Source: an uncultured Eubacteriales bacterium
Lineage (GTDB): Bacteria > Bacillota > Clostridia > Oscillospirales > Acutalibacteraceae
Direction: 5' to 3'
NCBI GenBank assembly: GCA_900314355.1
Contig: OMUY01000016.1
Coordinates: forward strand, 104,713 to 168,712
Length of the DNA stretch: 64,000 bases
Positions 2,542-19,189 of the stretch are shown here, one piece after another. A program made the position numbers and the translations under genes. Each line of letters begins with the position of its first letter. Within the stretch, counting starts at the first letter, position 1. The notes beneath the pieces were generated by a model that saw only the letters and a program-made list of their open reading frames with translations, did not search any database and had not been told where the DNA came from.

Positions 2542-3431
2542 AACGTTTTTCCGATACTTATCCGCCGGTTGCGATAATTTATTATGTTTTCGTTCTCGTT
2601 TTCTCGCTTTCGGCGAAACACCCCGTATACCTCGCGATTTCTGCCGTATGCTCGCTTGCGTGCGACATATCGTATAAGGGAATTGACGTTTTAAAGACTT
2701 TTGTTAAAATCTGCCTTCCAGCCGTCGTCGTAATAACTTTGCTGAACGGTTTTACATCCCACTGGGGCGAGACTGTTTTATTTAAAATGAAAGGCGGCAA
2801 CAATATCTGCCTTGAGCCTTTTATATACGGGTTTGTCACGGGGATTGACGTCTCCGCGGTCATATTAATATTTGACTCTTTCAATTTCATTTTCACATCC
2901 GACAAGCTTATTTTCGTCTTGGGTTCCAAAGCGAAAAATACAGGCGCTGCAGTCACCATGGCTTTAAGGGAAATTCCTTTAATCGGCAGGCGTTTCAGAG
3001 AGACGAGAGAGGCGCTTGCCGGAATAGGGGAATACGGCTCCGATGGCAGAAAGAAAAATTTTATGCTTTCCGCGTCTATTCTTGCGTCTATGATTTCAAG
3101 GACTGTCGAGGAAAGCGTAATAAGATCCGACTCAATGATTTCAAGGGGATGGGGACTTAAAAAATCCTCAAGATACGGTAAATTTATCTTTTCGTTTTCA
3201 GACAGGATAATTCTTTGTTTTTCCGTCGTTCTCGCTTTGATTACGGCAGCCGGACTTTTATCCGGATACGGCGAAGTAATTTACAACCCTTATTTTGAAA
3301 TGCGTAAAACAGATGCGGTCTCCTTGATTTTTTTCATTTGTTATTTTCTGCTGCTTACTGTTCCGCTTATTTTTAATTTAAGCGAAGTTGTAAAATACAA
3401 AAAATTCGATAAAATTTCAAATTGTCAATAA
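2538..3431 (+). CDS. ecfT: ECF transporter transmembrane component EcfT (CbiQ family)
   Basis: This 297-residue integral membrane protein has several hydrophobic segments (about 8-50, 56-75, 95-115, 230-250, 268-288). It carries the cytoplasmic coupling motif of EcfT, seen as SDSMISRGW near 196-204, equivalent to the Ala-Arg-Gly motif that contacts the ATPases. Its ATG overlaps the stop of the propeller gene by four bases (ATGA). It would transmit ATP hydrolysis to the S component encoded downstream. Confidence 0.82.
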   Translation: MKRFSDTYPPVAIIYYVFVLVFSLSAKHPVYLAISAVCSLACDISYKGIDVLKTFVKICLPAVVVITLLNGFTSHWGETVLFKMKGGNNICLEPFIYGFVTGIDVSAVILIFDSFNFIFTSDKLIFVLGSKAKNTGAAVTMALREIPLIGRRFRETREALAGIGEYGSDGRKKNFMLSASILASMISRTVEESVIRSDSMISRGWGLKKSSRYGKFIFSFSDRIILCFSVVLALITAAGLLSGYGEVIYNPYFEMRKTDAVSLIFFICYFLLLTVPLIFNLSEVVKYKKFDKISNCQ

Positions 3432-3452
3432 ATATTTTATAACTAATAAAAA

Positions 3453-5054: not shown

Positions 5055-5125
5055 ACTGTCCGCCGGATTAGTTTTTCTGATAAGCATTATTGAAAATATA
5101 TCGACAGGTTTGAATTTTTGGTAAA

Positions 5126-5842
5126 ATGGTAAAAGACAGAAAGATAATCAAAACCGCAATTATTTACCTGATAGTTTTCGCCGTGTGTCCGGCGCTTGTT
5201 CTGATGTCGTATTTCCTTTTCGGAAATGACAAAATATATCTCTTCGCCTCTGTTTTATCTGTTATCGCGGTGCTTCCCGTTTTCATCAGGTTTGAAAAAA
5301 AGCAGAACGCTTCAAGAGAAGTGTCCGCCACGGCCGCGCTTACTGCGGCGGCGGTAGCGTCAAGGGCGGCGTTTTATTTTCTTCCTCAGGTTAAACCGAT
5401 AGGAGCGGTTTGTATAATTGCCGCCGTTTCTTTCGGAGCGGAAGAGGGTTTTTTGGTCGGCGCGCTGTCGATGTTCCTTTCAAATTTTATATTCGGTCAG
5501 GGCTCGTGGACGCCTTTTCAGATGCTCGGCATGGGTCTTACGTGTTTTATATGCGGTCTTATCGCTAAATCTGAAAGCCTTAAAAGAAGGAGAATTATAT
5601 TTCCGTTTATACTTTCACTCGTTCAGTTTATTGTCTACGGTTTTACAGTTGATACCGACACGGCTCTTTACATATCGTCTCCATCTTTTGAAACGGTATT
5701 CTCGGTATATCTCGCCGGCGCTCCGTTCAACCTGATATTTGCCGCAACTACATTCGCCGTACTCGTTCTGATTTTAAAGCCTGTTTCAGAAAGGCTTGAC
5801 AGATTGAAAAAGAAATACGGAATATTTGAGGAGAAAAATTAA
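5126..5842 (+). CDS. ECF transporter S component, likely corrinoid/cobalamin specific
   Basis: This 238-residue membrane protein has six predicted hydrophobic segments. The motif GQGSWTPFQMLGMG near 125-138 resembles the S components found in B12-regulated ECF systems (CbrT/CblT type). S components bind the substrate and topple in the membrane to release it. The gene follows the ATPase by 71 bases and precedes a DUF4430 lipoprotein by two bases. Substrate is inferred from the riboswitch; a cobalamin precursor such as dimethylbenzimidazole is an alternative. Confidence 0.75.
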   Translation: MVKDRKIIKTAIIYLIVFAVCPALVLMSYFLFGNDKIYLFASVLSVIAVLPVFIRFEKKQNASREVSATAALTAAAVASRAAFYFLPQVKPIGAVCIIAAVSFGAEEGFLVGALSMFLSNFIFGQGSWTPFQMLGMGLTCFICGLIAKSESLKRRRIIFPFILSLVQFIVYGFTVDTDTALYISSPSFETVFSVYLAGAPFNLIFAATTFAVLVLILKPVSERLDRLKKKYGIFEEKN

Positions 5843-5844
5843 AT

Positions 5845-6561
5845 ATGAAAAAATCGATTGCTGTATTTGCGATATTGTTGATATTCTGTTTTTCTTTTTT
5901 TTCGTGCGGAAAAAGGTCCGAAGATTATTCAACCGAAGTATATTCGGAAGAAGAAAGTTCTGCCGAAATTTTCTCATTTCGGGAAAATAAAGAAAAAGAA
6001 ACGTCAACAGCCGAAGAAAATGATTGTTCCAGACCGTCGGAAAAAAATAAAGACGAAAATAATAATCTGTTATCCGAAAAGACGACAGCGAAAAAAGAGG
6101 CGGAGCGTCATTCAGCGAAAAAATCCGTTTCAAATTGTGAAGCCGAAACGGTTAAGACAACGGAGAAAAAAAATGACGAGGTTACTGTTTCAATCAACTG
6201 TTCGACGATTTTAAACAATATGGACTCTCTTAAACACGGCAAAGAAAATTATGTTCCCGCGGACGGGTATATTCTTCCGGATACAAAAATACAAATTGAA
6301 AAAGGCGATACGGTTTTCGATGTTCTTCAAAAAGCGTGCGATAAATATTCTATACAGCTTGAATATACTTATTCTTCGGTCTATTCAACCGAATATATCG
6401 AGGGAATAGGCCAGCTCTACGAATTTGACTGCGGTTCATCGTCGGGCTGGATGTTCAAAGTAAACGGCAAAGTTTCCGAGTTGGGCGCGTCGTCGGTCAA
6501 ATTGAAATCGGGAGACAAAGTCGAATGGGTTTACACGTGCGACATGGGAAATGATATTTAA
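5845..6561 (+). CDS. DUF4430-domain lipoprotein, putative corrinoid-binding protein
   Basis: The protein has 238 residues. A short signal sequence ends at a lipobox-like FFSC with Cys21 as the lipidated residue. A low-complexity Glu/Lys/Ser linker (about 24-112) follows, then a single DUF4430 domain (about 113-238) with the typical SGWMFKVNGK segment and SGDKVEWVYTCD end. It is the last gene of the riboswitch operon. The lipid anchor would hold the domain on the outer face of the membrane near the S component. Being anchored this way, it lacks the Phe-rich C-terminal helix found on the first gene's product. Confidence 0.72.
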   Translation: MKKSIAVFAILLIFCFSFFSCGKRSEDYSTEVYSEEESSAEIFSFRENKEKETSTAEENDCSRPSEKNKDENNNLLSEKTTAKKEAERHSAKKSVSNCEAETVKTTEKKNDEVTVSINCSTILNNMDSLKHGKENYVPADGYILPDTKIQIEKGDTVFDVLQKACDKYSIQLEYTYSSVYSTEYIEGIGQLYEFDCGSSSGWMFKVNGKVSELGASSVKLKSGDKVEWVYTCDMGNDI

Positions 6562-6693: not shown

Positions 6694-6924
6694 TTATTTG
6701 CACTGCTCGATTTTTATATTTTTCAGCTCGTAGCCGGTGGAGTCTATTGCGCTTTTCAAAAGGTTTTCGTCGGGTTTTTCTTCCGAAATGAATTTTGCCG
6801 TTTTCTTGTGTCTGTCGGCTTTGACTTTTTTCGCTTTCGGATAAATTTTTCTGATGGCGTCCTGAATATGAGCCTCGCACATAGAACACATCATACCCTC
6901 AATTTCAAGCTCTGTTTTGTACAT
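6694..6924 (-). CDS. Heavy-metal-associated (HMA) domain protein, CopZ-like
   Basis: This 76-residue single-domain protein has the metal-binding MxCxxC motif (MMCSMCEAH, Cys13 and Cys16) on the first loop of a ferredoxin-like fold. It matches copper-chaperone-type HMA proteins. Start at ATG 6924 is supported by GGGAG about eight bases upstream; an in-frame ATG eleven codons earlier has no such site. The second half is unusually Lys/Glu-rich. No P-type ATPase is next to it, so the partner is unknown. Confidence 0.75.
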   Translation of the reverse strand: MYKTELEIEGMMCSMCEAHIQDAIRKIYPKAKKVKADRHKKTAKFISEEKPDENLLKSAIDSTGYELKNIKIEQCK

Positions 6925-6975
6925 CGTTTTGTCTCCCAAATTAAATTTTTCAATCAAAAATTCAATTAATATGTT

Positions 6976-7113: not shown

Positions 7114-7142
7114 TTGACAAATATATGTATTTTTAGTATAAT
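7114..7142 (+). promoter_or_regulatory. Promoter of the hydrogenase-regulator/nitrogenase-like run
   Basis: TTGACA at 7114-7119 and TATAAT at 7137-7142 with a 17-base spacer form a full consensus promoter. It is the only strong promoter I found ahead of the co-directional run to hypE, although the spacers before hydF and hypC could hide others. Confidence 0.8.
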
Positions 7143-7174
7143 AAAAACAATCAATAAAAAGAGGGTCGTTTTAA

Positions 7175-7411
7175 TTGGAGACAAAAGTTGCCGTTGTGGC
7201 TATCATAGCTCACGGAAATGACAAATCGGGAGAGATCAACTCTGTTTTGCACGAGTATTCCGAATATATCATAGGCAGAATGGGAATACCGTATGAGAAA
7301 AAGGGCGTAAATATCATCTGCATAGCGGTTGACGCTCCGCAGGACAAGATAAATTCTCTCGCCGGAAAAATAGGCAGAATAGATTCGGTTACCGCCAAAA
7401 CCGTATATTGA
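7175..7411 (+). CDS. TM1266-family putative iron-only hydrogenase system regulator
   Basis: This 78-residue ACT/NikR-like small protein fits the TM1266 family. Those genes are typically found among hydE, hydG and hydF in organisms with [FeFe] hydrogenase. Visible family traits are the length, the IIGRMGIPYEKKGVNIICI centre and the GKIGRIDSVTAKTVY ending. Translation starts at TTG with GAGGG (7161-7165) upstream. It is the first gene of the run leading to hydF and the nitrogenase-like genes. Its ligand and DNA target are unknown. Confidence 0.75.
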   Translation: METKVAVVAIIAHGNDKSGEINSVLHEYSEYIIGRMGIPYEKKGVNIICIAVDAPQDKINSLAGKIGRIDSVTAKTVY

Positions 7412-7530
7412 TATTGAATTTATATATCGTTTTTATATTAGGACTTAAATTTTTTCGGACTGGGTTTGTATTTTAGTCTTCTGTTTAATTTATTTTTGGT
7501 TTTCTGACATAAAAATTTTATTGATATGAA

Positions 7531-7607
7531 AGAAACCGATGTTAAAAGATTTTTTCAAAATTATTTTTGAATTTAATATTTTGCACGGTTTCTTAAAAAA
7601 TTTTTTT
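7531..7607 (+). promoter_or_regulatory. Structured leader ahead of hydF
   Basis: AGAAACCG (7531-7538) pairs perfectly with CGGTTTCT (7586-7593), and an internal TTCAAAA/TTTTTGAA pairing extends it. An A-run and T-run (7594-7607) follow, just before the GAGAGG ribosome-binding site of hydF. The 215-base spacer thus resembles a regulatory leader. It matches no riboswitch class I recognise. Confidence 0.4.
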
Positions 7608-7626
7608 GAGAGGTCGTGTATTTTTT

Positions 7627-8829
7627 ATGGGATTAAACGATACGCCGTCAGGCGACAGAACTCACATTGGCTTTTTCGGACTCAGAAACGCCGGCAAGTC
7701 AAGTCTTGTAAACGCTTTTACTTCGCAGGAATTATCGGTTGTCTCCGATATTAAGGGAACTACGACAGACCCTGTCCAAAAATCCATGGAGCTTCTGCCT
7801 CTCGGACCTGTCGTAATAATAGACACTCCAGGATATGACGACGAGGGTTCTCTCGGAGAAAAAAGAGTTCACGCCGCGAAAAGAATACTCAACAGAACCG
7901 ACATCGCGGTGCTTGTTACAGACGCTGCATCGCCTTTAACGCATCTTGAAAAAGAGCTTATTTCAATTTTTGAGGAAAAAGAAATAGCTTACGTAATCGC
8001 GGAAAATAAATCCGACCTTCTCGAAAAAATTCCTTCCGACGACGACAGGCACATATACGTTTCGGCTAAAAACAAGACGGGAATTGAAAAATTAAAAAAC
8101 AAAGTCGCTTCTTTAATGAAAAATGAGCTTCTTTCAACAGACCTTCTCGCGGGGCTGGTCAAAAAAAACGAGACGGTAATTTTGGTAACGCCTATAGACG
8201 ACGCGGCTCCTAAAGGAAGGATGATTCTTCCCGAACAGATGGGAATAAGGGACGCGCTTGATTCGGACGCGATATGCGTAGTAGTAAAGGAGACGAATTT
8301 AAAGCAGGCGCTTGAACAGATACCAGGCGTATCGCTTGTCGTTACCGATTCTCAGGCATTTGAGATAGTGTCGTCATTAGTCCCCGAGAACATTCCGCTC
8401 ACGTCTTTTTCCATATTAATGGCTAAATACAAAGGCTTTCTGGAAGGCGCCGTGGAAGGCGTTACGGCTATATCCGAACTTAAAGACGGAGACAATGTTC
8501 TTATTTCGGAAGGATGCACGCATCACAGACAGTGCGAGGATATAGGCACAGTTAAAATGCCCGGCTGGCTCACCGAAGCGAGCGGGGCCAAACTCAATTT
8601 CAGCTGGTCATCCGGAAGAGATTTCCCCGAGGATCTTTCAAAATACCGGCTTGTTGTTCACTGCGGAGGCTGTATGCTTCCGTCAAGAGAATTGACGTAC
8701 AGAATGAAATGCGCTCACGACCAGGGCGTTCCTTTTACAAATTACGGTATATCAATAGCATATATGCACGGCATTTTAAAAAGAGCCTTATCGGTATTTC
8801 CGGAACTTGCGTCTAAGATAAAAGACTGA
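7627..8829 (+). CDS. hydF: [FeFe]-hydrogenase H-cluster maturation GTPase HydF
   Basis: The protein has 400 residues. An N-terminal GTPase domain has P-loop GLRNAGKSS, the GTTTDP switch, DTPG and NKSD. A dimerisation domain follows, then the C-terminal cluster-binding motif C297-x-H299-x45-H345-C346-xx-C349, which ligates a [4Fe-4S] cluster in HydF. HydF is the scaffold that receives the diiron CO/CN precursor from HydE and HydG and delivers it to hydrogenase. Start at ATG 7627 is chosen; GAGAGG lies upstream. HydE and HydG are absent from the window, and the next genes are nitrogenase-like, which is unusual for hydF. Confidence 0.92.
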   Translation: MGLNDTPSGDRTHIGFFGLRNAGKSSLVNAFTSQELSVVSDIKGTTTDPVQKSMELLPLGPVVIIDTPGYDDEGSLGEKRVHAAKRILNRTDIAVLVTDAASPLTHLEKELISIFEEKEIAYVIAENKSDLLEKIPSDDDRHIYVSAKNKTGIEKLKNKVASLMKNELLSTDLLAGLVKKNETVILVTPIDDAAPKGRMILPEQMGIRDALDSDAICVVVKETNLKQALEQIPGVSLVVTDSQAFEIVSSLVPENIPLTSFSILMAKYKGFLEGAVEGVTAISELKDGDNVLISEGCTHHRQCEDIGTVKMPGWLTEASGAKLNFSWSSGRDFPEDLSKYRLVVHCGGCMLPSRELTYRMKCAHDQGVPFTNYGISIAYMHGILKRALSVFPELASKIKD

Positions 8830-8840
8830 AAACATATTAA

Positions 8841-8879
8841 CGCCGAAGTTTGAATAATCTGTTGGATTATTTGTCGGCG
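8841..8879 (+). promoter_or_regulatory. Intercistronic stem-loop between hydF and the NifH-like gene
   Basis: CGCCGA (8841-8846) pairs with TCGGCG (8874-8879). An inner AATAATC/GATTATT helix (8853-8859/8865-8871) stacks on it. No T-run follows, so it is more likely an mRNA processing or stabilising element than a terminator. Confidence 0.5.
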
Positions 8880-8916
8880 CTGTAGTAAAACTAAAATTAC
8901 AAGGAATTTAATCATC

Positions 8917-9672
8917 ATGGTAAAAATCGCTGTTTACGGAAAAGGCGGAATAGGAAAATCCACGACAGTTTCCAATATGTCGGCATGTCTCGCGGACAAG
9001 GGATTAAAGGTTCTTCAAATCGGCTGCGACCCTAAAGCGGATTCCACTTTGTCGCTTCACGGAGGAGTAAGGCTGCCGTCCGTCCTCGATTTGATAAGAG
9101 AAAAAGACGATGATTTTACGCTCGACGATATGATAATCAAAGGCTACAAGGGAGTTCTCTGCGCTGAGGCCGGCGGGCCGGTGCCTGGAGTCGGGTGCGC
9201 GGGCAGAGGAGTAATCACCGCTCTTGAAAAGCTTCAGGATAAAGGCGTTTACGAAAAATACCATCCCGACGTCGTTTTCTACGATGTCCTCGGCGACGTT
9301 GTCTGCGGAGGATTTTCAATGCCGATGAGAAAAGGATACGCGGATAAAATATACATTGTCACATCGGGCGAGAATATGTCAATTTACGCTGCCGCCAATA
9401 TAGCTGCGGCTTCAAGAAATTTCGCGTCGAGAGGATACGCCCCGCTCGGAGGATTTATTCTCAACAGGAGAAATGTGAAAAACGAGGATGAAAAAGTAAA
9501 AGAGCTTTGCGCTGATTTCGATTCAAAGATAATTGGAGCGATAGACCGCTCTCAACTGATACTTACAGCAGAGGAAAAGGGGAAAACGGCTGTGGAGCTT
9601 TTCCCCGATTCCGATATAGCGGACGAATACCGCATTCTCGCGGAAAATATTCTTCTCGATTTAAAAAAATGA
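8917..9672 (+). CDS. NifH-like Fe protein (nitrogenase reductase superfamily)
   Basis: The protein has 251 residues versus about 290 for NifH. The P-loop is GKGGIGKST (8-16). Cys94 in GVGCAGRGV and Cys130 in [11 protein letters not shown] are the two ligands that bridge a [4Fe-4S] cluster between subunits. Arg97 corresponds to the Arg contacting the partner. So it is an ATP-driven one-electron donor of the NifH/BchL/CfbC type. The ribosome-binding site AAGGA precedes it. Its stop overlaps the next ATG by four bases, tying it to the component-1-like genes. No NifE, N, B or V genes are nearby, so true N2 fixation is not supported. Confidence 0.9.
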
Positions 9673-11006
9673 TAATAAGCGCAAACAATCAAAAACGCTC
9701 TGTGCCGGAAATAAAAATATCTGATTTCAAATATCCGACGTCTTTTAAAGAAACACTCGATTATTCTTCTCCGGCGAGGGGAAAATGGAACATAGTTCAG
9801 ACTGCTTTTTTGATTCCCGAATCCCACCAGATATATATCTGCGCTCAGGGATGTCTCAGGGGAGTGGTTTTAACGGCAGCCGAGATGAATTGTATGGACA
9901 GGCTTTCATGGATATCCGTATGTGAAAATGATTTTTTTGACGGCGGACTTGAAGACGACGTTATTTCGGGAGCAGACGACATAATTTCCAACATGGACAA
10001 AAAACCGAAAGCCGTAGTGCTCGTCTACTCCTGCATGCACCTTTTCGCCGGTTCGGATATAGAAATGATCACAGACTCCATGAATAAAAAATTTCCCGAT
10101 ATTAAATTTATAACGGGATATATGCAGCCTGTCAGAAGAAAATCATTATCTCCCGATGAGCTTATGAGGTGTCAGATATATTCCTGCCTTGAAAAAACCG
10201 GGTGCGACGAAAATTCAGTAAATATTATCGGCAGCAATTTCAAAACAGACGACGATTCCGAGCTGAAAATTTCTTTGAAAAACGCCGGAATAAATATAAG
10301 GGATATCACCGAAGCCAAAACATACGGCGAATTTCTCGAAATGGGCAATTCTCGGCTTAATATATTGTACGATAAAGCCGCAATTCCGGCGGCGAAACAG
10401 TTGAAAAAAAGACTCGGAACGGATTTTGTTTATATCCCGAGAACTTACGATTTTGAAAAGACCGAAGAAAATTACAAATTGCTTTTTTCCAAACTCAATC
10501 TGCCTCTGCCGGACTTTTCCGAATACAAAGAAAGAGCGGCAAAATCCGTTATAAACGCGAAAAAGATTTTAGGTTCCGTTCCGATTGAAATTGACGCTTT
10601 GTCTACAACAGCGCCTGTGTCGCTTGCTCTTTTTCTCTGTGAAAATAACTTCAATGTGACAAAAATATATCTTGACGCTGTCTCATCTGACGAAGAAAAG
10701 GCGTTTGACAAACTCAAAAAAATATCTCCGGAAATATCCGTTTCTCCTCTGCACGACCCGGCTATGAGATTTATGAATACTATCTCGGCCGAAAGTAAAA
10801 AGAATAAAATCCTGGCGTTCGGACAGCAGGCCGCTTATTTTGCGGATACCGGTTATTTCGTAAATACTGTTGAGGGAGAAGGACGCTACGGATTTTCGGA
10901 AATTGAAAAGACGATGAATCTTTTGACCGACGCGTTCTTAAACGAAAAGGATATGCTCAAAACCGTTTCAATAAAGGGATTGGAGTGTGATTCCTGCTTA
11001 TGCTGA
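9669..11006 (+). CDS. Nitrogenase component-1-like protein A1 (NifD/NifE/BchN fold)
   Basis: The protein has 445 residues of the oxidoreductase/nitrogenase component 1 superfamily. Candidate cluster ligands are Cys58/Cys62 (ICAQGCLRG), Cys85 and Cys122 ([11 protein letters not shown], the position of the C-x-x-x-x-G-D motif of NifD/K). The C-terminus is Cys-rich (ECDSCLC), which is unusual for the family. It overlaps the Fe-protein gene by four bases and the next gene by seven. It resembles the gene at 12163 in the layout of its N-terminal half, so the operon encodes two related pairs. Substrate and cofactor are unknown. Confidence 0.8.
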
Positions 11007-12154
11007 GACACGCCTCGATAACGTCTATTTACGCCGCCGACACTTCTGGAGTCGCGTCAGCGCTTTTTGAGCTCGGCGGACTTACGGTAATTCACGATCC
11101 GTCGGGATGTAATTCTACATATACTACTCACGATGAGCCGAGATGGGCTGATTTTGACTCTATGTTCTACGTCTCCGGACTTACGGAAAAAGACGCGATA
11201 ATGGGAAATGACGAGAAAGTCATATCCGATCTCGCATATACGGCAGAACGTTTAAATCCCGAATTTATAGCGATATGCGGCTCTCCGATGCCGATGATGG
11301 TCGGCACGGATTTCGACGCCCTCGCTTATGAAACGGAAAAAAGAACAGGTATAAAGACGTTCGCTTTTCATACAAACGGAATGAACGACTATATTTCCGG
11401 CGAGGAGGAAGCTTTTTACGAACTCGTAAAATATTATTCAATAGAAAAACATTCAGAAGAAAGCGGCGATTTTCTCGTAAATGTCATAGGCGCGACACCT
11501 ATTGATATGACTGATTATTCTCACATCAAATCAATTTCCGATTTTCTTGAAAAACACAAAATGAAATTAAATTCATGCCTTTCAATGGGCTGCAAAATTC
11601 CGGACATTGAGAAAATTCCGGACGCGGACGCGAATTTGGCGGTATCATATTCGGGAATAAAAGCGTGTGAATATCTGAATAAAAAATTCGGTCAGAATTA
11701 CGCGGCGGGTCTTCCTTTCGGCGAAAAATTTTCCGAAAAGCTTGCCGACGCTTTGAAATCAGGAAAAAATATAAATCTGTTCAACCGAGATTTCGGTTCC
11801 GGTTTTCCCGATATCGTAATTGAGGGCGAGTCCGTTTTTTCTCTTTCGCTTTCATCGGCGCTTTATGACGATTTCAATATCGGTTCGTCCGTAATCTGCC
11901 CGTTGAAAACAGATAAAAATTTTCTCGGGAAAAATGATTTCTCAGTATCCGATGAAAATGAAGAAAAAAAGATATACAAAAATTTTAAGACAGCAGTGGC
12001 GGACAATCTTTATAAACCTATCATTCCGAAAAACTGCCGTTTCGTATCCCTGCCGTCCGTCGGATTTTCCGGCAGATGCTTTCTCGGACAGATACCCGAT
12101 TTAAGCAGAAAATCGGATTTTCAAAATCTCGTAAAAAAAATAATTTCTAAATAA
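11000..12154 (+). CDS. Nitrogenase component-1-like protein B1 (NifK/NifN/BchB-like partner)
   Basis: The protein has 384 residues. It begins almost at the fold, with no long N-terminal arm. Key segments are LFELGGLTVIHDPSGCNST (Cys37), DEPRW, AIMGNDEKV and ICGSPMPMMVGTDF (Cys93). These match the P-cluster-side cysteine and the GxD motif of component 1 proteins. It overlaps the gene before it by seven bases, which suggests stoichiometric production with A1 as a heterodimer. It is clearly paralogous to the gene at 13431. Function beyond superfamily membership cannot be assigned. Confidence 0.78.
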   Translation: MLRHASITSIYAADTSGVASALFELGGLTVIHDPSGCNSTYTTHDEPRWADFDSMFYVSGLTEKDAIMGNDEKVISDLAYTAERLNPEFIAICGSPMPMMVGTDFDALAYETEKRTGIKTFAFHTNGMNDYISGEEEAFYELVKYYSIEKHSEESGDFLVNVIGATPIDMTDYSHIKSISDFLEKHKMKLNSCLSMGCKIPDIEKIPDADANLAVSYSGIKACEYLNKKFGQNYAAGLPFGEKFSEKLADALKSGKNINLFNRDFGSGFPDIVIEGESVFSLSLSSALYDDFNIGSSVICPLKTDKNFLGKNDFSVSDENEEKKIYKNFKTAVADNLYKPIIPKNCRFVSLPSVGFSGRCFLGQIPDLSRKSDFQNLVKKIISK

Positions 12155-12162
12155 TATCGTCT

Positions 12163-13434
12163 ATGAATAATGCAGAATATTTCACAACCGGCTGTCTTGC
12201 CGAATATGGACCCGACATGATTCCCGACTTGTACAAAAGCGCAAGTCATCTTATTTATTCGTCTCCCGCATCGCTCGCGTTCAATTCGCCAGGCGCGTCG
12301 GGATTCGGAGTAAAAAGAGCGGGACTTTCCGTTCCTGGCTCTGTAATGCTTCTTGTTTCGCCCGGATGCTGCGGCAGAAACACGACGCTTGAAAGCGTAA
12401 GAGACGGCTATTCGGACAGGTTTTATTTTCTCGAGCTTGATGACACCGATATAATAACGGGCAGGTATCAGGAAAAAATTCCGCGCGCGTGCCGTGAAAT
12501 AGCCGGGCAGAGAGATGAAAAACCGTCGGCTGTCATGATATGCGTAACGTGTGTAGACGCTCTTCTCGGTACAGACGCGGAAGCTCTTGTCAAAGAATCG
12601 GAAAATGAATGCGGTCTGCCGGTCGCCGCCTGCTATATGTACGCTTTGACGAGGGATTCAACTCTGCCGCCAATGGTATCTGTCAGAAAATCGGTCTATT
12701 CGCTTTTGAAAAAAAAGGAAAGACGCCCCGATGAGATTAATATTCTCGGATATTTTTCGCCGGTAGACAGGTCGAGCGAGCTTTTTGAAATACTCGAAAG
12801 CGCGGGAATAAAAAAAATTCGTGAAATTTCAAGGTGTAAAGATATAAGCGAATATTATGACATGGCGAGGGCGAATTTTTCACTCGTTCTCGATTCAAGC
12901 TCAAATTACGCCGCCGACGATATGATGAAGCGTCTCGGCATTCCGTATATCGAAATTGTCAGAACATACGATATAGATAAGATAGATAAAACTTACAGAT
13001 CTCTTTGTTCCGCGATAGGCGCGAAGGCTGAAACCGAAAAATATTATTCCTCCGCAAAATCGGAAATAGAAAAGGCAAAGCGGAAAAATCCCGTTTTTTC
13101 TGTAGGCGAGACTTTAAACGCGGATGCGTTTGATTTGACTTTGTCTTTATTGAGGTACGGGTTTAAAGTGTCGGAAATTTTCGGTACGCCTTCAAAATAC
13201 AATTACGGTATGATAAAAAAAATCGCCGCGATTTCTCCTGATACGAAAGTATATTCGAATCTTTCACCGTCGATGCTTTTCTACGATGAGAATGAGAATA
13301 AATGCGACATATCTGTCGGAAAAGACGCTTCTTATTATCATTCAAACGCGGAAAAAATATTGTGGGCTGATGAAATACAGCCGTTCGGATTTGCAGGAGT
13401 AAGAAAGCTTTTTGAAGAAATAAACAGTCTATGA
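12163..13434 (+). CDS. Nitrogenase component-1-like protein A2
   Basis: The protein has 423 residues. The N-terminal half aligns by eye with A1: SPGCCGRNTTLES carries Cys69/Cys70, and ICVTCVDALLGTD carries Cys127/Cys130. A Cys equivalent to A1 Cys85 is not seen. It also has extra features near the start (TTGCLAEYGPDMIPDLYKS). It begins eight bases after B1 and overlaps B2 by four. By analogy with NifDK/NifEN, one pair could be catalytic and the other a cofactor scaffold; which is which is not visible. Confidence 0.77.
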   Translation: MNNAEYFTTGCLAEYGPDMIPDLYKSASHLIYSSPASLAFNSPGASGFGVKRAGLSVPGSVMLLVSPGCCGRNTTLESVRDGYSDRFYFLELDDTDIITGRYQEKIPRACREIAGQRDEKPSAVMICVTCVDALLGTDAEALVKESENECGLPVAACYMYALTRDSTLPPMVSVRKSVYSLLKKKERRPDEINILGYFSPVDRSSELFEILESAGIKKIREISRCKDISEYYDMARANFSLVLDSSSNYAADDMMKRLGIPYIEIVRTYDIDKIDKTYRSLCSAIGAKAETEKYYSSAKSEIEKAKRKNPVFSVGETLNADAFDLTLSLLRYGFKVSEIFGTPSKYNYGMIKKIAAISPDTKVYSNLSPSMLFYDENENKCDISVGKDASYYHSNAEKILWADEIQPFGFAGVRKLFEEINSL

Positions 13435-14474
13435 AAAATTTATACAAAATGATCTCTCCGTTTTCTCCCGACCAGTCGGGGGCGGTATCTGTTCTCTATG
13501 AGCTTGGTGGCGTAGTCGCTGTTCTCGACGCCGGCGGATGCGCCGGAAATATATGCGGATTTGACGAACCGAGATGGATGACAAAAAAATCTGCCGTATT
13601 TTCCGCCGGTCTGAGGGATATGGACGCGATTATGGGCAGGGACGAGCTTCTCGCCGAAAAACTCAAAGCGGCGTGCGAAAAAATTGACCCTGAATTTTGC
13701 GCCGTCGTAGGGACCCCGGCGCCTGCAATAATCGGAACCGATTTTGACTCTTTAAGACAGATGATTGAAGAGATGACAGGCAAAAAAACGGTATGTGTAG
13801 AGACGACAGGAACAAAATATTTTGATTCGGGCGAGGAAAAAGCCTACCTTGACCTTTTCAAAACATTCGCCGAAAAGAAATTTGACGCCGTAGAGGGAAA
13901 AACAGGCGTAGTCGGAGTGACGCCTCTTGAGTTTTCCTGCCTTGACGCGGACAAAAAAATAAGGAATGTAAAGGGCTTTGAAAACGCCGTATGCTTCGGA
14001 TATAATTCCGGGCTTGACGAAATCGTAAAAGCGTCAGAATGTGAAAAGCTTGTCGCGGCTTCTCCGTCGGCTGTAAAAGCGTGCGAATATCTCAGCGCAA
14101 AATTTGATATTCCGTATGAAAAAGACCGCATATACATCCCCGAAAAAATAAAAAATAAATGCGAAAATATCAAAGATAAAAAAGTTCTTGTAATTACCGG
14201 GCAATTCATTTTTGAAAAGTTAAAAGATATTTTAAATAAAAACAACAATGAAGTGACTTTCGCCTCGTTTTTCATGACAAAAGGAAAAACGGATTATGAT
14301 ATTATAAAACTTTCGGACGAAGATTCTCTGACAGAATTGATCTCATCTTCGGAATTTGACGAGGTTATAGGCGATGCCGCTTTTGAAAAAATATACAGAA
14401 AATTCGCATTGAATAAAACAAGCGAATTTACGGATTTTCCTTCGTTTTCGGTATCGGGACGTCTGACGGATTAA
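13431..14474 (+). CDS. Nitrogenase component-1-like protein B2
   Basis: The protein has 347 residues and is paralogous to B1. Shared segments are LYELGGVVAVLDAGGC (Cys37), DEPRWM, MDAIMGRDELL and GTPAPAIIGTDFDSL. Where B1 has Cys93, B2 has Val93, so one potential cluster ligand is lost, while an extra Cys42 appears. It is shorter than B1 at the C-terminus. The stop is followed after 46 bases by hypF. The asymmetry between B1 and B2 suggests the two heterodimers do different jobs. Confidence 0.77.
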   Translation: MKNLYKMISPFSPDQSGAVSVLYELGGVVAVLDAGGCAGNICGFDEPRWMTKKSAVFSAGLRDMDAIMGRDELLAEKLKAACEKIDPEFCAVVGTPAPAIIGTDFDSLRQMIEEMTGKKTVCVETTGTKYFDSGEEKAYLDLFKTFAEKKFDAVEGKTGVVGVTPLEFSCLDADKKIRNVKGFENAVCFGYNSGLDEIVKASECEKLVAASPSAVKACEYLSAKFDIPYEKDRIYIPEKIKNKCENIKDKKVLVITGQFIFEKLKDILNKNNNEVTFASFFMTKGKTDYDIIKLSDEDSLTELISSSEFDEVIGDAAFEKIYRKFALNKTSEFTDFPSFSVSGRLTD

Positions 14475-14520
14475 AATAAAGGCGGAAAAACCGAACGACG
14501 TTTTTTGAATATAATAAATT

Positions 14521-16827
14521 ATGAAAACATATCTCATCAGGCTTTACGGAATAGTTCAGGGCGTCGGCTTCAGACCGTTCGTCAAAAATCTCGCCGACTC
14601 TTATCTTGTAAAGGGAACAGTATCGAACAAAGGCTCATATGTCGAAATATACGCGCAGGGTGAAAATGCGGAAAATTTCATGTCAGACCTTACGGTGAAA
14701 AATCCGGAACGTTCGATTATTTTAAAAAAAGACGTAAAGACTCTTGATCTCGATAAATATTCGTCGTTTGAAATAATCGGTTCCGAACACGAGACCGGCG
14801 ATATTTTCGTCTCGCCCGACATAGCGACTTGTCCGGAATGCAAAAGGGAACTGTATGACAAGACCAACAGACGCTACCTTCATCCGTTTATCAACTGCAC
14901 TCAGTGCGGACCGAGACTTACTATTCTCGATTCCATGCCTTACGACCGCGAGCGCACTTCAATGGCGGAATTTCCGATGTGCGAAAAGTGTGAAAAGGAA
15001 TATTATGACCCGTCGTCAAGACGTTTTGACGCTCAGCCGGTATGCTGCAACGACTGCGGCCCAAAGCTTTATATAGTCGGAAAAGACATAACCGGTCTCG
15101 ACGCCGTCAGATATTCGAGAGAGCTTATAATGTCCGGAAAAATCGTCGCGGTCAAAGGAATAGGCGGGTTTCATCTCTGCTGCGACGCAAAAAACAGCGA
15201 GGCTGTAATCAGACTCAGAAAACTTAAAAACAGACCGCAGAAACCGTTTGCCGTGATGATGAAAGATATGGAAACGGCGGAGAAATACTGTGAGATTTCC
15301 AAAGAGGAAAAAAAACTTCTCGACTCATATCAAAAGCCGATAATATTACTGAAAAAGAAAAAGAGCTTTAAATTTGAAGCCGTCGCTCCCGGCAATCCAT
15401 TTCTGGGAGTAATGCTTCCGTATGCGCCTGTTCAGATGCTTCTTTTCTCTCTTCCAAATTCCGATTCAAATAATACTGTCGCCGACGACGGTATGACCGA
15501 CTGTTTCGTCATGACGAGCGGAAACGTTTCGGGTGCGCCGATTTGCAGGGACGACGAGACAGCTTTGGAGGAGATTGGATCTTTCTGCGACGCTGTTTTG
15601 TCTCACGACAGAAAAATCAGAATAAGAGCCGACGATTCCGTTGTGTCGTTCTTTTTTGGCAAACCGTATATGATAAGACGTTCAAGGGGATACGCTCCTC
15701 TTCCCGTCATCACTTCATTTTCTTCCGCACGCAGAGTTCTGGCAATAGGAGGCGAGCTTAAAAACACTTTCTGCTTAGCCCAAAACGATATGTATTACAT
15801 GTCGCCTTATGTCGGAGATTTAGCGGATATCAGAACCGTCAACGCGCTTGAGGAGACTGTGGGACGAATGGAAGAGCTTCTTGAAATTGAGCCCGATACG
15901 GTAGTATGTGACAAACATCCGCTCTACAACAGCGTTTCTGCCGCCGAAAAAACCTGGCTTCCTTTGGTCAGGGTTCAGCACCACTACGCCCATATTTTAT
16001 CTTGCATGGCGGAAAATGATTTAAGAGGCGCGGTTTTGGGGATTTCATTTGACGGAACAGGCTACGGAGACGACAAAACCGTATGGGGCGGAGAATTTTT
16101 TGTCTGCGATGAGAAAAATTACAAGAGAGCGGGACATATCTCACCTTTTTATCAGGTCGGCGGAGATCTTTCCGCGAAAGAGGGTTTCAGAATAGCCGCC
16201 GCGATGACTGAAAATTACGAAACGGCCGAAAAACTCGGTCTCTGCGACAAAAAAACTTTCGACTTGATAAAAGTCTGCGCTCAAAAAAATATTAATTCCG
16301 TTAAATCTACAAGCGCCGGCAGGCTTTTCGACGCTGTATCGGCAATTCTCGGAATAAAAAGAAAATCGACGTTTGAATCCGAAGCGGCTTCGTCTCTTCA
16401 ATCTTTCGCCGAGACAGATTCCGACGGAAACATAACGGATCTTGAGCCTTGTCTTTCCGAAAAAGATATAGAAAAATATTCGTTCCTTTCCGGGCGGGGA
16501 TCGGACGGACTGTGCGAAGCAAAAACGGATATTATTTTTAAAGATATCACGAATAAAGCTCTCGAAAACTATGACAGGCATTACCTCGCTTCTCTTTTTC
16601 ATAAAATGCTCGCGTCGTCTGTAGTAAACGTCTGCATTAATGTAAGAGAAAAGAGCCGTGTGAACAGAGTATGTCTTTCCGGAGGAGTATTTCAGAATAT
16701 ATATTTTCTGTCTCTTGTAAAGTCCGGTCTTGAAAAATCCGGTTTTGACGTATATATTCATTCTTTGATTCCGCCTAACGACGGCGGCATTGCTCTCGGA
16801 CAGGCTTATTACGGCATGAATATGTAA
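14521..16827 (+). CDS. hypF: Carbamoyltransferase HypF
   Basis: The protein has 768 residues, full length. It has an acylphosphatase domain (1-90, GIVQGVGFRPF with Arg18), four CxxC zinc-binding pairs starting at Cys104/Cys107 (CPECKRE, CTQCGP, CEKCEK, CNDCGP), a YrdC-like domain (DITGLDAVRYSREL onwards) and a Kae1-like domain (VQHHYAHILSCM, SGGVFQN). HypF turns carbamoyl phosphate into carbamoyl-AMP and transfers it to the HypE C-terminal Cys, the source of cyanide ligands. There is no clear ribosome-binding site. It follows the nitrogenase-like genes by 46 bases. Confidence 0.93.
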   Translation: MKTYLIRLYGIVQGVGFRPFVKNLADSYLVKGTVSNKGSYVEIYAQGENAENFMSDLTVKNPERSIILKKDVKTLDLDKYSSFEIIGSEHETGDIFVSPDIATCPECKRELYDKTNRRYLHPFINCTQCGPRLTILDSMPYDRERTSMAEFPMCEKCEKEYYDPSSRRFDAQPVCCNDCGPKLYIVGKDITGLDAVRYSRELIMSGKIVAVKGIGGFHLCCDAKNSEAVIRLRKLKNRPQKPFAVMMKDMETAEKYCEISKEEKKLLDSYQKPIILLKKKKSFKFEAVAPGNPFLGVMLPYAPVQMLLFSLPNSDSNNTVADDGMTDCFVMTSGNVSGAPICRDDETALEEIGSFCDAVLSHDRKIRIRADDSVVSFFFGKPYMIRRSRGYAPLPVITSFSSARRVLAIGGELKNTFCLAQNDMYYMSPYVGDLADIRTVNALEETVGRMEELLEIEPDTVVCDKHPLYNSVSAAEKTWLPLVRVQHHYAHILSCMAENDLRGAVLGISFDGTGYGDDKTVWGGEFFVCDEKNYKRAGHISPFYQVGGDLSAKEGFRIAAAMTENYETAEKLGLCDKKTFDLIKVCAQKNINSVKSTSAGRLFDAVSAILGIKRKSTFESEAASSLQSFAETDSDGNITDLEPCLSEKDIEKYSFLSGRGSDGLCEAKTDIIFKDITNKALENYDRHYLASLFHKMLASSVVNVCINVREKSRVNRVCLSGGVFQNIYFLSLVKSGLEKSGFDVYIHSLIPPNDGGIALGQAYYGMNM

Positions 16828-16911
16828 AAAGAAACCATAGTTAAATATTTAATTAACATTAATAAGTGATAATATAAAATTTGAAAAGCAAATTTCGGAG
16901 GAAAATTAAAA

Positions 16912-17124
16912 ATGTGTGTAGGTATTCAGGCAAAGGTTTTGTCGGTTGATGACGACACAGCCGTAGTTGACGCCACAGGGGCGAAAAGGGAAGTTTCGTC
17001 GGCTCTGCTTGACGATCTGGAGCCGGGCGATTACGTTATGGTTCACGCAGGCGTAGCTATAGCGAAGATTACATCGTCTTCAGACGAAGAGACCGAAGAA
17101 ATTCTTTCCGATAAAAAATCATGA
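16912..17124 (+). CDS. hypC: Hydrogenase maturation chaperone HypC
   Basis: The protein has 70 residues. The N-terminal MC with invariant Cys2 carries the Fe(CN)2CO unit with HypD. The family motif near HxGFA is present as VHAGVAIAKI. The usual MCLAVPG start reads MCVGIQAKV here, a modest departure. GGAGG (16897-16901) gives a strong ribosome-binding site. The stop overlaps hypD by four bases. Confidence 0.9.
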   Translation: MCVGIQAKVLSVDDDTAVVDATGAKREVSSALLDDLEPGDYVMVHAGVAIAKITSSSDEETEEILSDKKS

Positions 17125-18167
17125 ACGAAAAATTAATCGAAGCTAAAAATTATCTCGAGACATACGACGGCAGACCGTTAAGGATAATGGAAGTCTGCGG
17201 CACTCATACGCACGAGATTTTCCGTCTCGGAATAAGGAAAATACTTTCCGAAAAAATTAAATTGATTTCCGGTCCGGGCTGTCCCGTTTGTGTAACGGGA
17301 GTCGGATATATAGACAAGGCTGTTTTTCTCGCGTTTGAAAGAAATGCAATAATCTGCACGTTCGGCGATCTAATAAGAGTTCCGGGCACAGAGATGTCTT
17401 TGGGCGAAGCTAAAGCGAAAGGCGCGGACGTCAGAATGGTGTACACCCAGTCTGACGCTGTTAATATTGCGAAAGAAAATCCCGATAAGCAGGTTGTTTT
17501 TCTTTCCGTCGGATTTGAAACGACTACCCCCGGAGCTTGTCTCGCGGTCAAAAAAGCGAAAAATGAGAATGTCGGTAATTTTTCTCTTCTCATGTCAAAT
17601 AAGACTATGCCCAACGCATATGAGGCTCTTAAAAACAGCGCGGACGCGTTTCTCTACCCGGGTCACGTCAACGCTATAACAGGTACTGCGACGCTCGAAA
17701 AGCTTAAAAATGAAGGCGTTTCCGGAGTCGTGACGGGATTTACGGCAGGCGAACTTTTGACCGCGCTCAGCGTCACCGTGAAAAATCTGCAAAAAGACGA
17801 GCCGTTTTTTGAAAACTGCTATCCGAGAGTAGTGAGACCTGAGGGAAATATAAAGGCTCAAAAATTGATGTCTGAAACTTTGATTCCCTGCGACGCTGAA
17901 TGGAGAGGTCTCGGAATTATTCCAGGATCGGGCGTTAAACTTAACGACTCATATTCGGAATTTGACGCCGAAAAAAAGCTGTCTGTCCCCGATATCAAAG
18001 GCAGACCGAATCCGGCTTGCAGATGCGGAGATATTTTGAGAGGCGGCTGCCTGCCGAACGAATGTCCGCTGTACGGAAAAATCTGCAATCCCTTACATCC
18101 CGTAGGCGCTTGCATGGTGTCGTCCGAGGGCGCCTGCTCAGCTTATTACAAATATTCTCAAATTTAA
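17121..18167 (+). CDS. hypD: Hydrogenase maturation Fe-S protein HypD
   Basis: The protein has 348 residues. Conserved motifs are MEVCGTHTHEIFRLGI, SGPGCPVCVTG and GFETTTPG. The C-terminal [4Fe-4S] region has ACRCGDILRG, GGCLPNECPLYGK and CNPLHPVGACMVSSEG. HypD with HypC is the scaffold on which the Fe(CN)2CO moiety is assembled. Coupled to hypC by ATGA overlap, followed by hypE after 17 bases. Confidence 0.94.
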   Translation: MNEKLIEAKNYLETYDGRPLRIMEVCGTHTHEIFRLGIRKILSEKIKLISGPGCPVCVTGVGYIDKAVFLAFERNAIICTFGDLIRVPGTEMSLGEAKAKGADVRMVYTQSDAVNIAKENPDKQVVFLSVGFETTTPGACLAVKKAKNENVGNFSLLMSNKTMPNAYEALKNSADAFLYPGHVNAITGTATLEKLKNEGVSGVVTGFTAGELLTALSVTVKNLQKDEPFFENCYPRVVRPEGNIKAQKLMSETLIPCDAEWRGLGIIPGSGVKLNDSYSEFDAEKKLSVPDIKGRPNPACRCGDILRGGCLPNECPLYGKICNPLHPVGACMVSSEGACSAYYKYSQI

Positions 18168-18184
18168 AATCAGAAAAAAAGAAA

Positions 18185-19189
18185 ATGGAAGAATTTATAA
18201 CATTAAATCACGGCGCGGGCGGAAAACAGACGTCCGAGCTTATTGACAAAGTTTTTAAAAAACATTTTGAAAATCCGTGTCTTACGTCCGACGACGCGTC
18301 TGTTTTAAGCGTCGGAAATGAAAAAATCGCTTTTACAACCGACGGATTCATCGTATCTCCGTACAAATTCAACGGCGGAAATATCGGCAAACTTTCTATC
18401 TGCGGAACTGTAAACGACCTCGCTTGCATGGGCGCCGAACCGCTTTATATTGCCACCGCTTTCGTTATCGAAGAAGGTTTTCCGATTTCTGAACTTGAGG
18501 AGATAACGTCTTATATGGAAAAAACAGCCGCCGAAGCAGGAATAAAATTCGCCGCCGGCGACACAAAAGTAGCGGGGAAAGGTCAGGTAGACAAAATATT
18601 TATCACGACCACCGGAATAGGCAGAATTACGCAACGCGTAAATCTTTCCGGGGCGAACGCGAAGCCGGGAGACAAAGTTATAGTTACGAGAGACATCGGC
18701 CGCCACGGATCGGCAATACTTATCGCTCGAAACGAATTCGGAATTGACTCCGACATAAAATCAGACTGCGCGCCGCTTTGGGGAACAGTGAAAGATATGC
18801 TTTCTGTTTCAGAAAATATTCACACAATCAGAGACTCCACAAGGGGCGGCGTCGGTACCGTTTTATATGAAATAGCCGGTCAGTCAAATGCGGGAATTGT
18901 CCTTGACGAGGACAAAATTCCCGTTGACGGCAAAGTCTCCGGCTTATGCGGAATGCTCGGCTTAAATCCGCTTTACCTCGCGTGCGAGGGTACTTTAGTC
19001 GTAATATGCCCGCCGGAGGACGCGGATAAACTGATTGAAACGCTTCATAAAGGCGAGTATTCCGAAAACGCGGCTGTCATCGGTGAAGTTGTATCCGATT
19101 ACCCCGGAAAAGTCATTATGAATACGGAAATCGGCTCCCAGACTCTTCTGCCCGAACCACAGGGCGAGCTTCTTCCGAGAATTTGCTGA
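18185..19189 (+). CDS. hypE: Carbamoyl-dehydrating protein HypE
   Basis: The protein has 334 residues. It has the AIR-synthase-like ATP-binding fold (NHGAGGKQTSELI, FTTDGFIVSPY, DSTRGGVGTVLYEIA) and ends in the diagnostic PRIC, with the terminal Cys334 that receives carbamoyl and becomes thiocyanate. The ATG at 18185 matches the family N-terminus; a longer frame upstream runs inside hypD and is not the start. It is the last gene of the run. HypA and HypB, needed for nickel insertion, are not present. Confidence 0.94.
   Translation: MEEFITLNHGAGGKQTSELIDKVFKKHFENPCLTSDDASVLSVGNEKIAFTTDGFIVSPYKFNGGNIGKLSICGTVNDLACMGAEPLYIATAFVIEEGFPISELEEITSYMEKTAAEAGIKFAAGDTKVAGKGQVDKIFITTTGIGRITQRVNLSGANAKPGDKVIVTRDIGRHGSAILIARNEFGIDSDIKSDCAPLWGTVKDMLSVSENIHTIRDSTRGGVGTVLYEIAGQSNAGIVLDEDKIPVDGKVSGLCGMLGLNPLYLACEGTLVVICPPEDADKLIETLHKGEYSENAAVIGEVVSDYPGKVIMNTEIGSQTLLPEPQGELLPRIC

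Follow-up and report, generated by a model that had tools for sequence, protein, structure and literature searches.

We identified, in a stretch of 64,000 nucleotides from an uncultured Eubacteriales bacterium (hereafter the window), an operon that probably belongs to a HydG-independent route to the H-cluster of [FeFe]-hydrogenase, in which a nitrogenase-like reductase would ready an iron-CO/CN unit for HydE; we put the probability of this reading at roughly 60%. The CO and CN ligands of the H-cluster are commonly attributed to HydG. In terms of gene content, the replacement of HydG by the nitrogenase-like system is well supported, and the chemistry of the HydG-free route is what we infer.

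Eleven genes, all on the + strand, span positions 7175-19189 of the window (Table 1). As the original prediction had it, their profile matches give a TM1266-type regulator, HydF, a NifH-like protein, two component-1 pairs, and HypF-C-D-E; the predicted start at 7114 has to be corrected, as the first coding base is 7175. By mutual similarity, the four proteins matching PF00148 form two A/B pairs, c1A/B and c1C/D. In the translation of HydF, of which the first Met may be at 7627, the C-x-H and H-C-x2-C residues are visible. C94 and C130 of NifH1, which we take to be the two predicted cluster Cys, are kept, with conservation of 95% or more across 71 orthologues. It was also correctly noted that a hydrogenase structural gene, HypA/HypB, and a nif assembly gene are all absent from the eleven genes, and no described system of such composition was found in the open-access literature among the matches listed. 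Gene sets of this kind recur in relatives across many genomes, and the operon is therefore not a product of chance.

Table 1. Genes of the operon, with positions in the window and the matches on which the names are based.
Gene product	Position	Strand	Basis
TM1266-like putative regulator of iron-only hydrogenase systems (Pfam name)	7175..7411	+	PF21699 6e-29
HydF, GTPase/scaffold of H-cluster maturation	7606..8829	+	TIGR03918 523 bits, cut-off 326
NifH1, Fe-protein-like ATPase	8917..9672	+	PF00142 3e-89
c1A, nitrogenase component-1-like	9669..11006	+	PF00148 2e-17; AF2 pLDDT 86.5, component-1 fold
c1B, partner of c1A, weakly BchB-like	11000..12154	+	PF00148 1.5e-27; TIGR01278 61 bits, cut-off 490
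c1C, second component-1-like protein, type II only	12163..13434	+	PF00148 5.5e-29; AF2 pLDDT 82.9, component-1 fold
c1D, partner of c1C, type II only	13431..14474	+	PF00148 5e-16
HypF carbamoyltransferase	14521..16827	+	TIGR00143 748 bits, cut-off 466
HypC chaperone, N-terminus MCVGIQ	16912..17124	+	TIGR00074 60 bits, cut-off 48
HypD, clade apart from ten control HypD	17121..18167	+	TIGR00075 397 bits, cut-off 193; tree
HypE, C-terminal PRIC	18185..19189	+	TIGR02124 416 bits, cut-off 252

The genome from which the window derives (G000) is 86% complete and has HydE (on C9) and HydA (on C4) in addition to the HydF of the window; this HydA carries TSCSPGW, MPCTAKKYE, and EVMCCPGGC. HydG (TIGR03955) over the cut-off was not found in this 86% complete genome, the sole weak match being HydE. 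When the genomes were scanned with c1A, 309 matching stretches were obtained, and the best 80 loci of the 309 were examined; the carriers are Clostridia of several families and also metagenome-assembled genomes (MAGs) of Lentisphaerota and Synergistota. Whole-genome searches of 54 distinct carriers found HydE in all, and HydF and HydA each in 52; HydF was not detected in G002, a carrier with 70% completeness, and HydA was not detected in G111 and G120. The HydA motifs were matched only in part at L177, L184, and L186, and the motif rows of L048, L049, L058, L169, and L185 are uninformative, the wrong frame having been picked there.

HydG over the cut-off was found in five of 50 carriers and, once G000, G041, G057, and G089 were added, in five of 54 distinct ones. 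These five, in which HydG is intact, are two Intestinibacter bartlettii, Clostridium thailandense (with the C-x2-C-x22-C end), a Synergistaceae MAG, and a Lachnospiraceae MAG, and include all three named isolates tested. The HydG-less carriers among the 50 are, judging by their titles, metagenome-assembled or uncultured, and absence of HydG is thus never proof. Among the 48 HydF-bearing genomes in a baseline of 98 relatives (own genome included), HydG was found in 0/7 carriers, which are 86-99% complete, versus 39/41 non-carriers (Fisher p 4.9e-7, kinship uncorrected). The genus of the window holds both kinds, with G000 and G002 as carriers and G005 as canonical. Since HydE, HydF, and HydA are the constant partners and HydG is the usual absentee, the system more likely belongs to H-cluster maturation than to a new reductase with its own Fe-CO/CN cofactor.

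It is to be noted that G048, a genome with 99% completeness, has HydF but neither HydG nor NifH1; HydG can therefore be missing without the NifH1-c1A-c1B system. Also, 42 of the 98 relatives have HydA but lack both HydF and HydG, and HydA in these relatives may accordingly have other cofactor sources. Both observations would suit a different replacement of HydG, either by an unrecognised enzyme encoded elsewhere or by CO/CN obtained from outside the cell, with NifH1 and c1A/B doing a side job in the same regulon, as would the activation of about 1% by HydE and HydF in the absence of HydG that is cited in PMC9431212. We consider this very unlikely, because NifH1 and c1A/B often adjoin HydE/HydF and are swapped near-completely with HydG among the HydF-bearing relatives.

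The usual operon is TM1266-HydE-HydG-HydF, all four of which were present in 17 of 20 HydG loci (chosen out of 40). HydE immediately precedes NifH1 in 23 of the 80 carrier loci and HydF does so in 11, ten loci have c1A between HydE and HydF, and 36 of 37 well-flanked loci have at least one of TM1266, HydE, and HydF on the same strand. The predicted tie of the nitrogenase-like genes to Hyd and Hyp genes is borne out. TM1266, which is found at many of the carrier loci as well as in the canonical hyd operons of relatives, probably regulates the system. With the HydE-HydG-HydF maturation, the system shares TM1266, HydE, HydF, and HydA, but HydG was not found in 49/54 carriers and NifH1-c1A-c1B together with Hyp or an importer is present instead. 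HydE itself has no fixed difference in the columns compared; conservation of 90% or more in the 39 carriers and also in the 14 non-carriers was seen at 97 columns (16 rows left out). On the tree, HydE of carriers is intermixed with that of HydG-bearing non-carriers, with eight changes on the best tree, three of which are forced by well-supported branches; such branches give only three independent pairs (median p 0.5).

The carrier loci can be categorized into two types: type I, in which NifH1-c1A-c1B is accompanied by a Fec/Btu-like importer (45/80 loci), and type II, the form of the window, in which c1C/D is present and HypFCDE is usual (28/80 loci). No locus was of both types. Among the seven unclassed loci, those of G123, G136, and G138 proved on tracing to be of type II, their c1C-c1D-Hyp part lying elsewhere, and L095, L130, L131, and L136 were left unclassed; in G123, NifH2 is cut by a contig end. 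The c1C/c1D of type II relatives come with their own NifH2. In eight of the 28 type II loci, NifH2/c1C/c1D have no Hyp within the locus as recovered, and HypD was found elsewhere in all five searched genomes of these eight. Among the 54 carriers searched whole, all 28 type II genomes have HypD and none of the 26 type I genomes does. While the original prediction tied the nitrogenase-like genes to both hyp and hydF, the tie to hyp failed in 26/54 carriers, which have NifH1-c1A-c1B without any HypD, and that to hydF held in 52/54. A constant requirement of the system for hyp is ruled out by type I, and Hyp is to be regarded as one of two alternatives. I. bartlettii and C. thailandense are the named isolates carrying the two types, both with HydG.

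The importer parts of type I resemble ABC families for heme, B12, and siderophores, with scores below the cut-off, and the nitrogenase superfamily includes tetrapyrrole reducers. One might therefore think of an iron-acquisition or tetrapyrrole system, where an imported heme, corrinoid, or siderophore is reduced by NifH1 and c1A/B to give iron to the hydrogenase, with HydG lost for unrelated reasons; also, c1B is weakly like BchB (61 bits, cut-off 490) and CfbD (34 bits, cut-off 268), both below the cut-off. Such a system is quite unlikely, however, as it leaves unexplained both the loss of HydG and the mutual exclusion of Hyp and importer (HypD in 26/26 versus 0/24 among the 50). DPOR (BchLNB), CfbCD of F430 synthesis, and methylthio-alkane reductase are two-component nitrogenase-like reductases as well, with 9fmg, 9d9u, 2xdq, and 8vqj as fold matches of the c1A/c1C models, but the cut-offs of DPOR and CfbCD are not reached and the genomic partners here are hydrogenase maturation genes. 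Another pair of nitrogenase-like loci (L038 and L039) beside cysteine-synthase-like genes, named by reading, has NifH with about 48% identity and component-1 pairs but differs in its neighbours and in the distant component-1 proteins (best E ~1e-5 to 1e-7).

The Hyp set of the window is intact, HypC, D, E, and F being full length and over the cut-off, and Cys2 of HypC as well as the PRIC end of HypE is kept as in NiFe maturation by HypCDEF. An ordinary NiFe hydrogenase, with the remaining genes as chance neighbours, could account for such intact proteins, and a NiFe-like large subunit is found by motif in six of ten control hyp loci, one of them from C. thailandense. Nonetheless, this account is extremely improbable. 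The NiFe large subunit (PF00374) was found in two of 58 genome searches and was not found in 52/54 distinct carriers, and we accordingly rejected a NiFe hydrogenase as what hypFCDE are there for; G114 and G117 have NiFe-like genes (G117 judged from translations). Nor was it found in the 86% complete genome of the window, where the original prediction had left room for a NiFe hydrogenase that explains hypFCDE. Furthermore, c1C, c1D, and HypF, C, D, and E are all together in 14/80 loci, and type II HypD forms one separate clade (SH-aLRT 100). C. thailandense has two HypD on opposite sides of the type II branch, one beside a NiFe-like large subunit and the other in the type II locus. The set also differs from that of NiFe maturation in the lack of HypA/HypB from the operon and in the loss of HypC Pro6 (22/25 rows versus 1/9 controls), which the HypC of the window has lost as well.

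NifH1 is the sole strong NifH match in its own genome, the other three having E values of ~1e-7, and stays below the cut-offs of both nifH (322 bits, cut-off 394) and CfbC (321 bits, cut-off 402). Together with the matches to PF00142 and, fourfold, to PF00148, the models of c1A and c1C, which match the component-1 fold with a Foldseek probability of 1.00, place the set in the nitrogenase superfamily. Like NifEN and NifDK, the proteins have the component-1 fold and a NifH partner, and, of the PDB sequences, NifE gives the c1A and c1C profiles their highest scores; however, the scores are far below the NifE/NifN cut-off of 505 (63.5 bits for c1C, 42.8 for c1B, and 33.3 for c1D, with no match for c1A), the cofactor Cys is mostly lost, and the operon is devoid of nif assembly genes, NifB included. 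At the position aligned by HMMER, which presumably corresponds to the cofactor Cys of NifE, c1A of the window has Asp, and c1C has Asn, Asp, or His in 25/25 sequences. Nitrogen fixation is unsupported, with NifH below the cut-off and the cofactor Cys mostly absent.

The idea of Fe-CO/CN chemistry in the original prediction holds in part, but we regard a maturation pathway as more likely than the new metalloenzyme proposed there. As such an enzyme, c1A/B (and c1C/D) would be a reductase or scaffold carrying an Fe-CO/CN cofactor from Hyp and HydE/HydF, with a reaction unrelated to HydA. The same gene content would fit, the six invariant Cys of c1C in 25 sequences (C69, C70, C127, C130, C157, and C225) exceed the needs of a plain 4Fe-4S site, and the five HydG-keeping carriers imply that the system can exist beside normal maturation. 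We nonetheless find it unlikely; HypD is absent in 26/54 carriers, the presumed cofactor position is Cys in only 2/80 c1A and 0/25 c1C, and neither the HydG missing from 49/54 carriers nor the HydA kept in 52/54 would be explained.

In the HydG-independent route to the H-cluster, NifH1 would hand ATP-driven low-potential electrons to c1A/c1B, which may perform the final step ahead of HydE to give an iron-CO/CN synthon or its equivalent; HydE and then HydF would process this synthon in the usual way. Either of two interchangeable modules might supply the feedstock of c1A/B. In type II, HypF and HypE would turn carbamoyl phosphate into cyanide, and HypC and HypD would build an Fe-CN-CO unit for c1C/c1D, a putative NifEN-like scaffold; in the window, NifH1 may act with both pairs. 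The type I counterpart would be the Fec/Btu-like ABC importer, bringing in an iron chelate in place of the Hyp supply. A bolder version is conceivable yet doubtful: a second biological H-cluster route, in which nitrogenase-like reductases, aided by a dedicated Hyp set, need neither tyrosine nor HydG to make the diiron CO/CN synthon, the type I importer takes up an Fe-CN-CO precursor (or equivalent) made by others, and an organometallic precursor is thus shared among gut bacteria.

A natural HydG-free route, if true, would be another biological way to iron-CO/CN units; the nitrogenase superfamily would gain a role in hydrogenase maturation, and Hyp proteins would serve something besides NiFe hydrogenase. 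According to PMC9431212, HydE and HydF were found, without HydG, in five of eight acetogenic Clostridium, an open puzzle on which such a route may bear. The gene sets are small enough for expression, and the system is hence testable. Many gut bacteria appear to build the H-cluster without HydG and to have a nitrogenase-like enzyme in its place, with either cyanide/CO-making proteins or an iron-chelate-type importer, and this enzyme is often encoded among their remaining maturation genes.

The eleven genes of the operon lie on a single strand, several overlapping or touching, and are followed by rpsB and tsf as judged by reading the translations by eye. None of the proteins in the window reached a curated cut-off of NifH, NifD/K/E/N, BchLNB, or CfbCD, and the draft genome (2.2 Mb, 86% complete) has one strong NifH, hereafter NifH1. 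In the ECF-type module, the S component and one DUF4430 protein were confirmed by domain search, the remainder being assigned by reading the translations.

Positions of the operon, its neighbors, and a HydG remnant in a relative
Feature	Sequence	Position	Strand	Content
Operon	window	7175-19189		TM1266-like, HydF, NifH1, c1A, c1B, c1C, c1D, HypF, HypC, HypD, HypE
ECF-type transporter module	window	2538-6561		with DUF4430 protein; upstream of the operon
Small heavy-metal-associated (HMA) domain protein	window	6694-6957	-	between the ECF module and the operon
HydG remnant	L197 (genome G147)	about 7232-7948		without radical-SAM core

In maturation of [FeFe] hydrogenase (HydA), HydG cleaves tyrosine to give CO and CN and produces an Fe(CO)2CN synthon, which HydE and HydF convert into the [2Fe] unit. 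The role of HydG is also given in PMC9431212, where HydG is undetected in 5 of 8 acetogens and hypotheses, but no settled explanation, are offered. When 98 relatives (the window's own genome included) were searched, we found true HydF in 48 and true HydG in 40. HydF without HydG was seen in nine, namely the seven carriers of NifH1 (own included), G048, and G091, which has a HydG-like C-terminal fragment where a contig ends. Among HydF-bearing relatives, HydG was thus present in 0/7 carriers versus 39/41 others (Fisher p = 4.9e-7, kinship not corrected for); these near carriers are 86-99% complete, and G002, a 70% complete draft in which HydF was not found, stands outside the 0/7.

We then consider carriers more widely. 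An alignment of c1A, one of the component-1-like proteins, was scanned against GTDB genomes, giving 309 stretches that encode a relative at E ≤ 1e-3, and the best 80 were kept; by title, these 80 belong to Clostridia of several families, Synergistaceae/Synergistes, Lentisphaeria, and Victivallales. HydG was over the cut-off in five of the 50 carriers searched among the 80 (C. thailandense, two I. bartlettii, a Synergistaceae MAG, and a Lachnospiraceae MAG), while carrier genome searches gave HydE in 58/58, HydF in 48/50, and HydA in 48/50. After removal of four genomes counted twice, the 54 distinct carriers have HydE in 54, HydF in 52, HydA in 52, and HydG in 5. All three named isolates tested keep HydG, and the system there would therefore be an alternative or a partner.

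Also, several observations were made on HydG and HydA in the surrounding genomes. The remnant in G147, another of the 50 carriers searched and one whose system has an importer, looks as if HydG were being lost. In G048 (locus L201; 99% complete), HydF is present but neither HydG nor NifH1 was found, so that HydG is missing without the nitrogenase-like system. Furthermore, in 42 of the 98 relatives, an [FeFe] hydrogenase domain occurs with neither HydF nor HydG over the cut-off; nine of these genomes are in the window's own genus, G002 being the one carrier among the nine, and H-cluster motifs are kept in the four HydA looked at (L052, L054, L061, and L062). As G048 and these 42 show, there is more to HydA in this group than is explained here.

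In terms of gene neighborhood, the best 80 loci can be categorized into type I with importer genes on the same strand (45), type II with NifH2, c1C, c1D, or Hyp genes (28), both (0), and neither (7). Among the 98 genomes, NifH1 relatives at 62-67% identity occur in six others: G041, G053, G057, G076, G089, and G097. All but G057 have a FecCD/BtuC-like permease, an ATPase, and an IsdE/FecB-like binding protein adjoining NifH1-c1A-c1B (names resting on sub-cut-off matches of a few examples, plus similarity), with HydE and/or TM1266 nearby and, in G041, HydF as well. G057 has HydE-TM1266-NifH2-c1C-c1D-HypF-C-D-E-NifH1-c1A-c1B, and G002, of the window's own genus, has NifH1-c1A-c1B-NifH2-c1C-c1D-HypF-C-D-E. 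NifH2, absent from the window, is present in 28/28 type II loci; Hyp genes are in 20/28 and c1C and c1D together with HypF, C, D, and E in 14/28, many of the loci ending early. In L028, L029, and L031, the reading frame of the importer ATPase was noticed to end in a second TM1266-like domain, and other type I loci likewise have a second TM1266 match after the ATPase. Loci L034 and L035 (G049 and G018) are other nitrogenase-like loci, with Fec-like importers, component-1 proteins that are distantly related, and a NifH of 55-57% identity; both genomes do have HydG.

The relatives' HydG loci were fetched for 20 of the 40, partly for a close HydE-like match, and 17/20 in this sample, which leans toward intact operons, have all four genes in the order TM1266, HydE, HydG, HydF. 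In the 80 carrier loci, the gene directly before NifH1 is HydE in 23 and HydF in 11; in 10, c1A has HydE on one side and HydF on the other, and in others HydE or HydF is elsewhere. Two MAGs (L106 and L108) have HydE-TM1266-NifH1-c1A-c1B-HydF.

When HydE of 39 carriers was compared with that of 14 non-carriers having HydG over 97 strongly conserved columns, we found no fixed difference. Outside this comparison stood four non-carriers of very divergent sequence, a HydG-less carrier that is divergent (L225), five carriers that have HydG (L234 among them being divergent), and another six carriers whose genomes had not been searched for HydG. The absence of a fixed difference argues that HydE probably has the same substrate in both groups. 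Carriers and non-carriers are mixed in the HydE tree (69 rows; a quick search with 22/66 inner branches weak), the best tree having 8 changes and well-supported branches forcing 3; with only three independent pairs, significance is not obtainable from this tree.

In maturation of NiFe hydrogenase, HypEF convert carbamoyl phosphate to cyanide, and HypCD carry Fe(CN)2CO. Of the 50 wider genomes, 26 have HypD, comprising all 23 of type II plus three that lack an importer at the c1A locus and have c1C-c1D-HypF-C-D-E with NifH2 elsewhere; it was found in 0/24 importer genomes; adding the window's own genome and G057 (type II) and G041 and G089 (type I), the totals are 28/28 versus 0/26. A NiFe large subunit is present in two of the 54 carriers, C. 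thailandense (G114) and G117. In a tree of 24 type II rows (one genome twice) and 10 controls, five of these long-branched, the type II HypD group together in a single clade (SH-aLRT 100); a NiFe-like large subunit was recognized by motif in 6/10 control loci, and none was seen by script in the other four. Of the two HypD of C. thailandense, the one beside NiFe genes falls among the controls, and the other, from the type II locus, inside the type II clade. Also, Pro6 of HypC is lost in 22/25 type II rows (one genome twice) versus 1/9 controls. Hyp thus looks dedicated to the nitrogenase-like system.

AF2 models of c1A and c1C (pLDDT 86.5 and 82.9) have the component-1 fold, with Foldseek probability 1.00 to NifDK, NifEN, DPOR, and methylthio-alkane reductase. 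The conserved Cys residues (c1A C58, C62, C122, and C440; c1B C37; c1C C69, C70, C127, C130, C157, and C225; c1D C37 and C42) would suffice for an interface cluster like that of DPOR or like the P-cluster. At the position aligned by HMMER with what we take to be the cofactor Cys of NifE, Cys occurs in 2/80 c1A and 0/25 c1C.

No such system was found in the open-access literature among the matches listed. We infer that NifH1/c1AB may stand in for the last product of HydG, converting an iron unit, which would be supplied either by Hyp with c1C/c1D or by the importer, into what HydE requires; reduction of CO2 to CO on iron, for example, is a candidate reaction that would suit a low-potential, ATP-driven reductase. 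NifH1/c1AB would take the part of HydG in a HydG-independent route to the H-cluster of [FeFe] hydrogenase.
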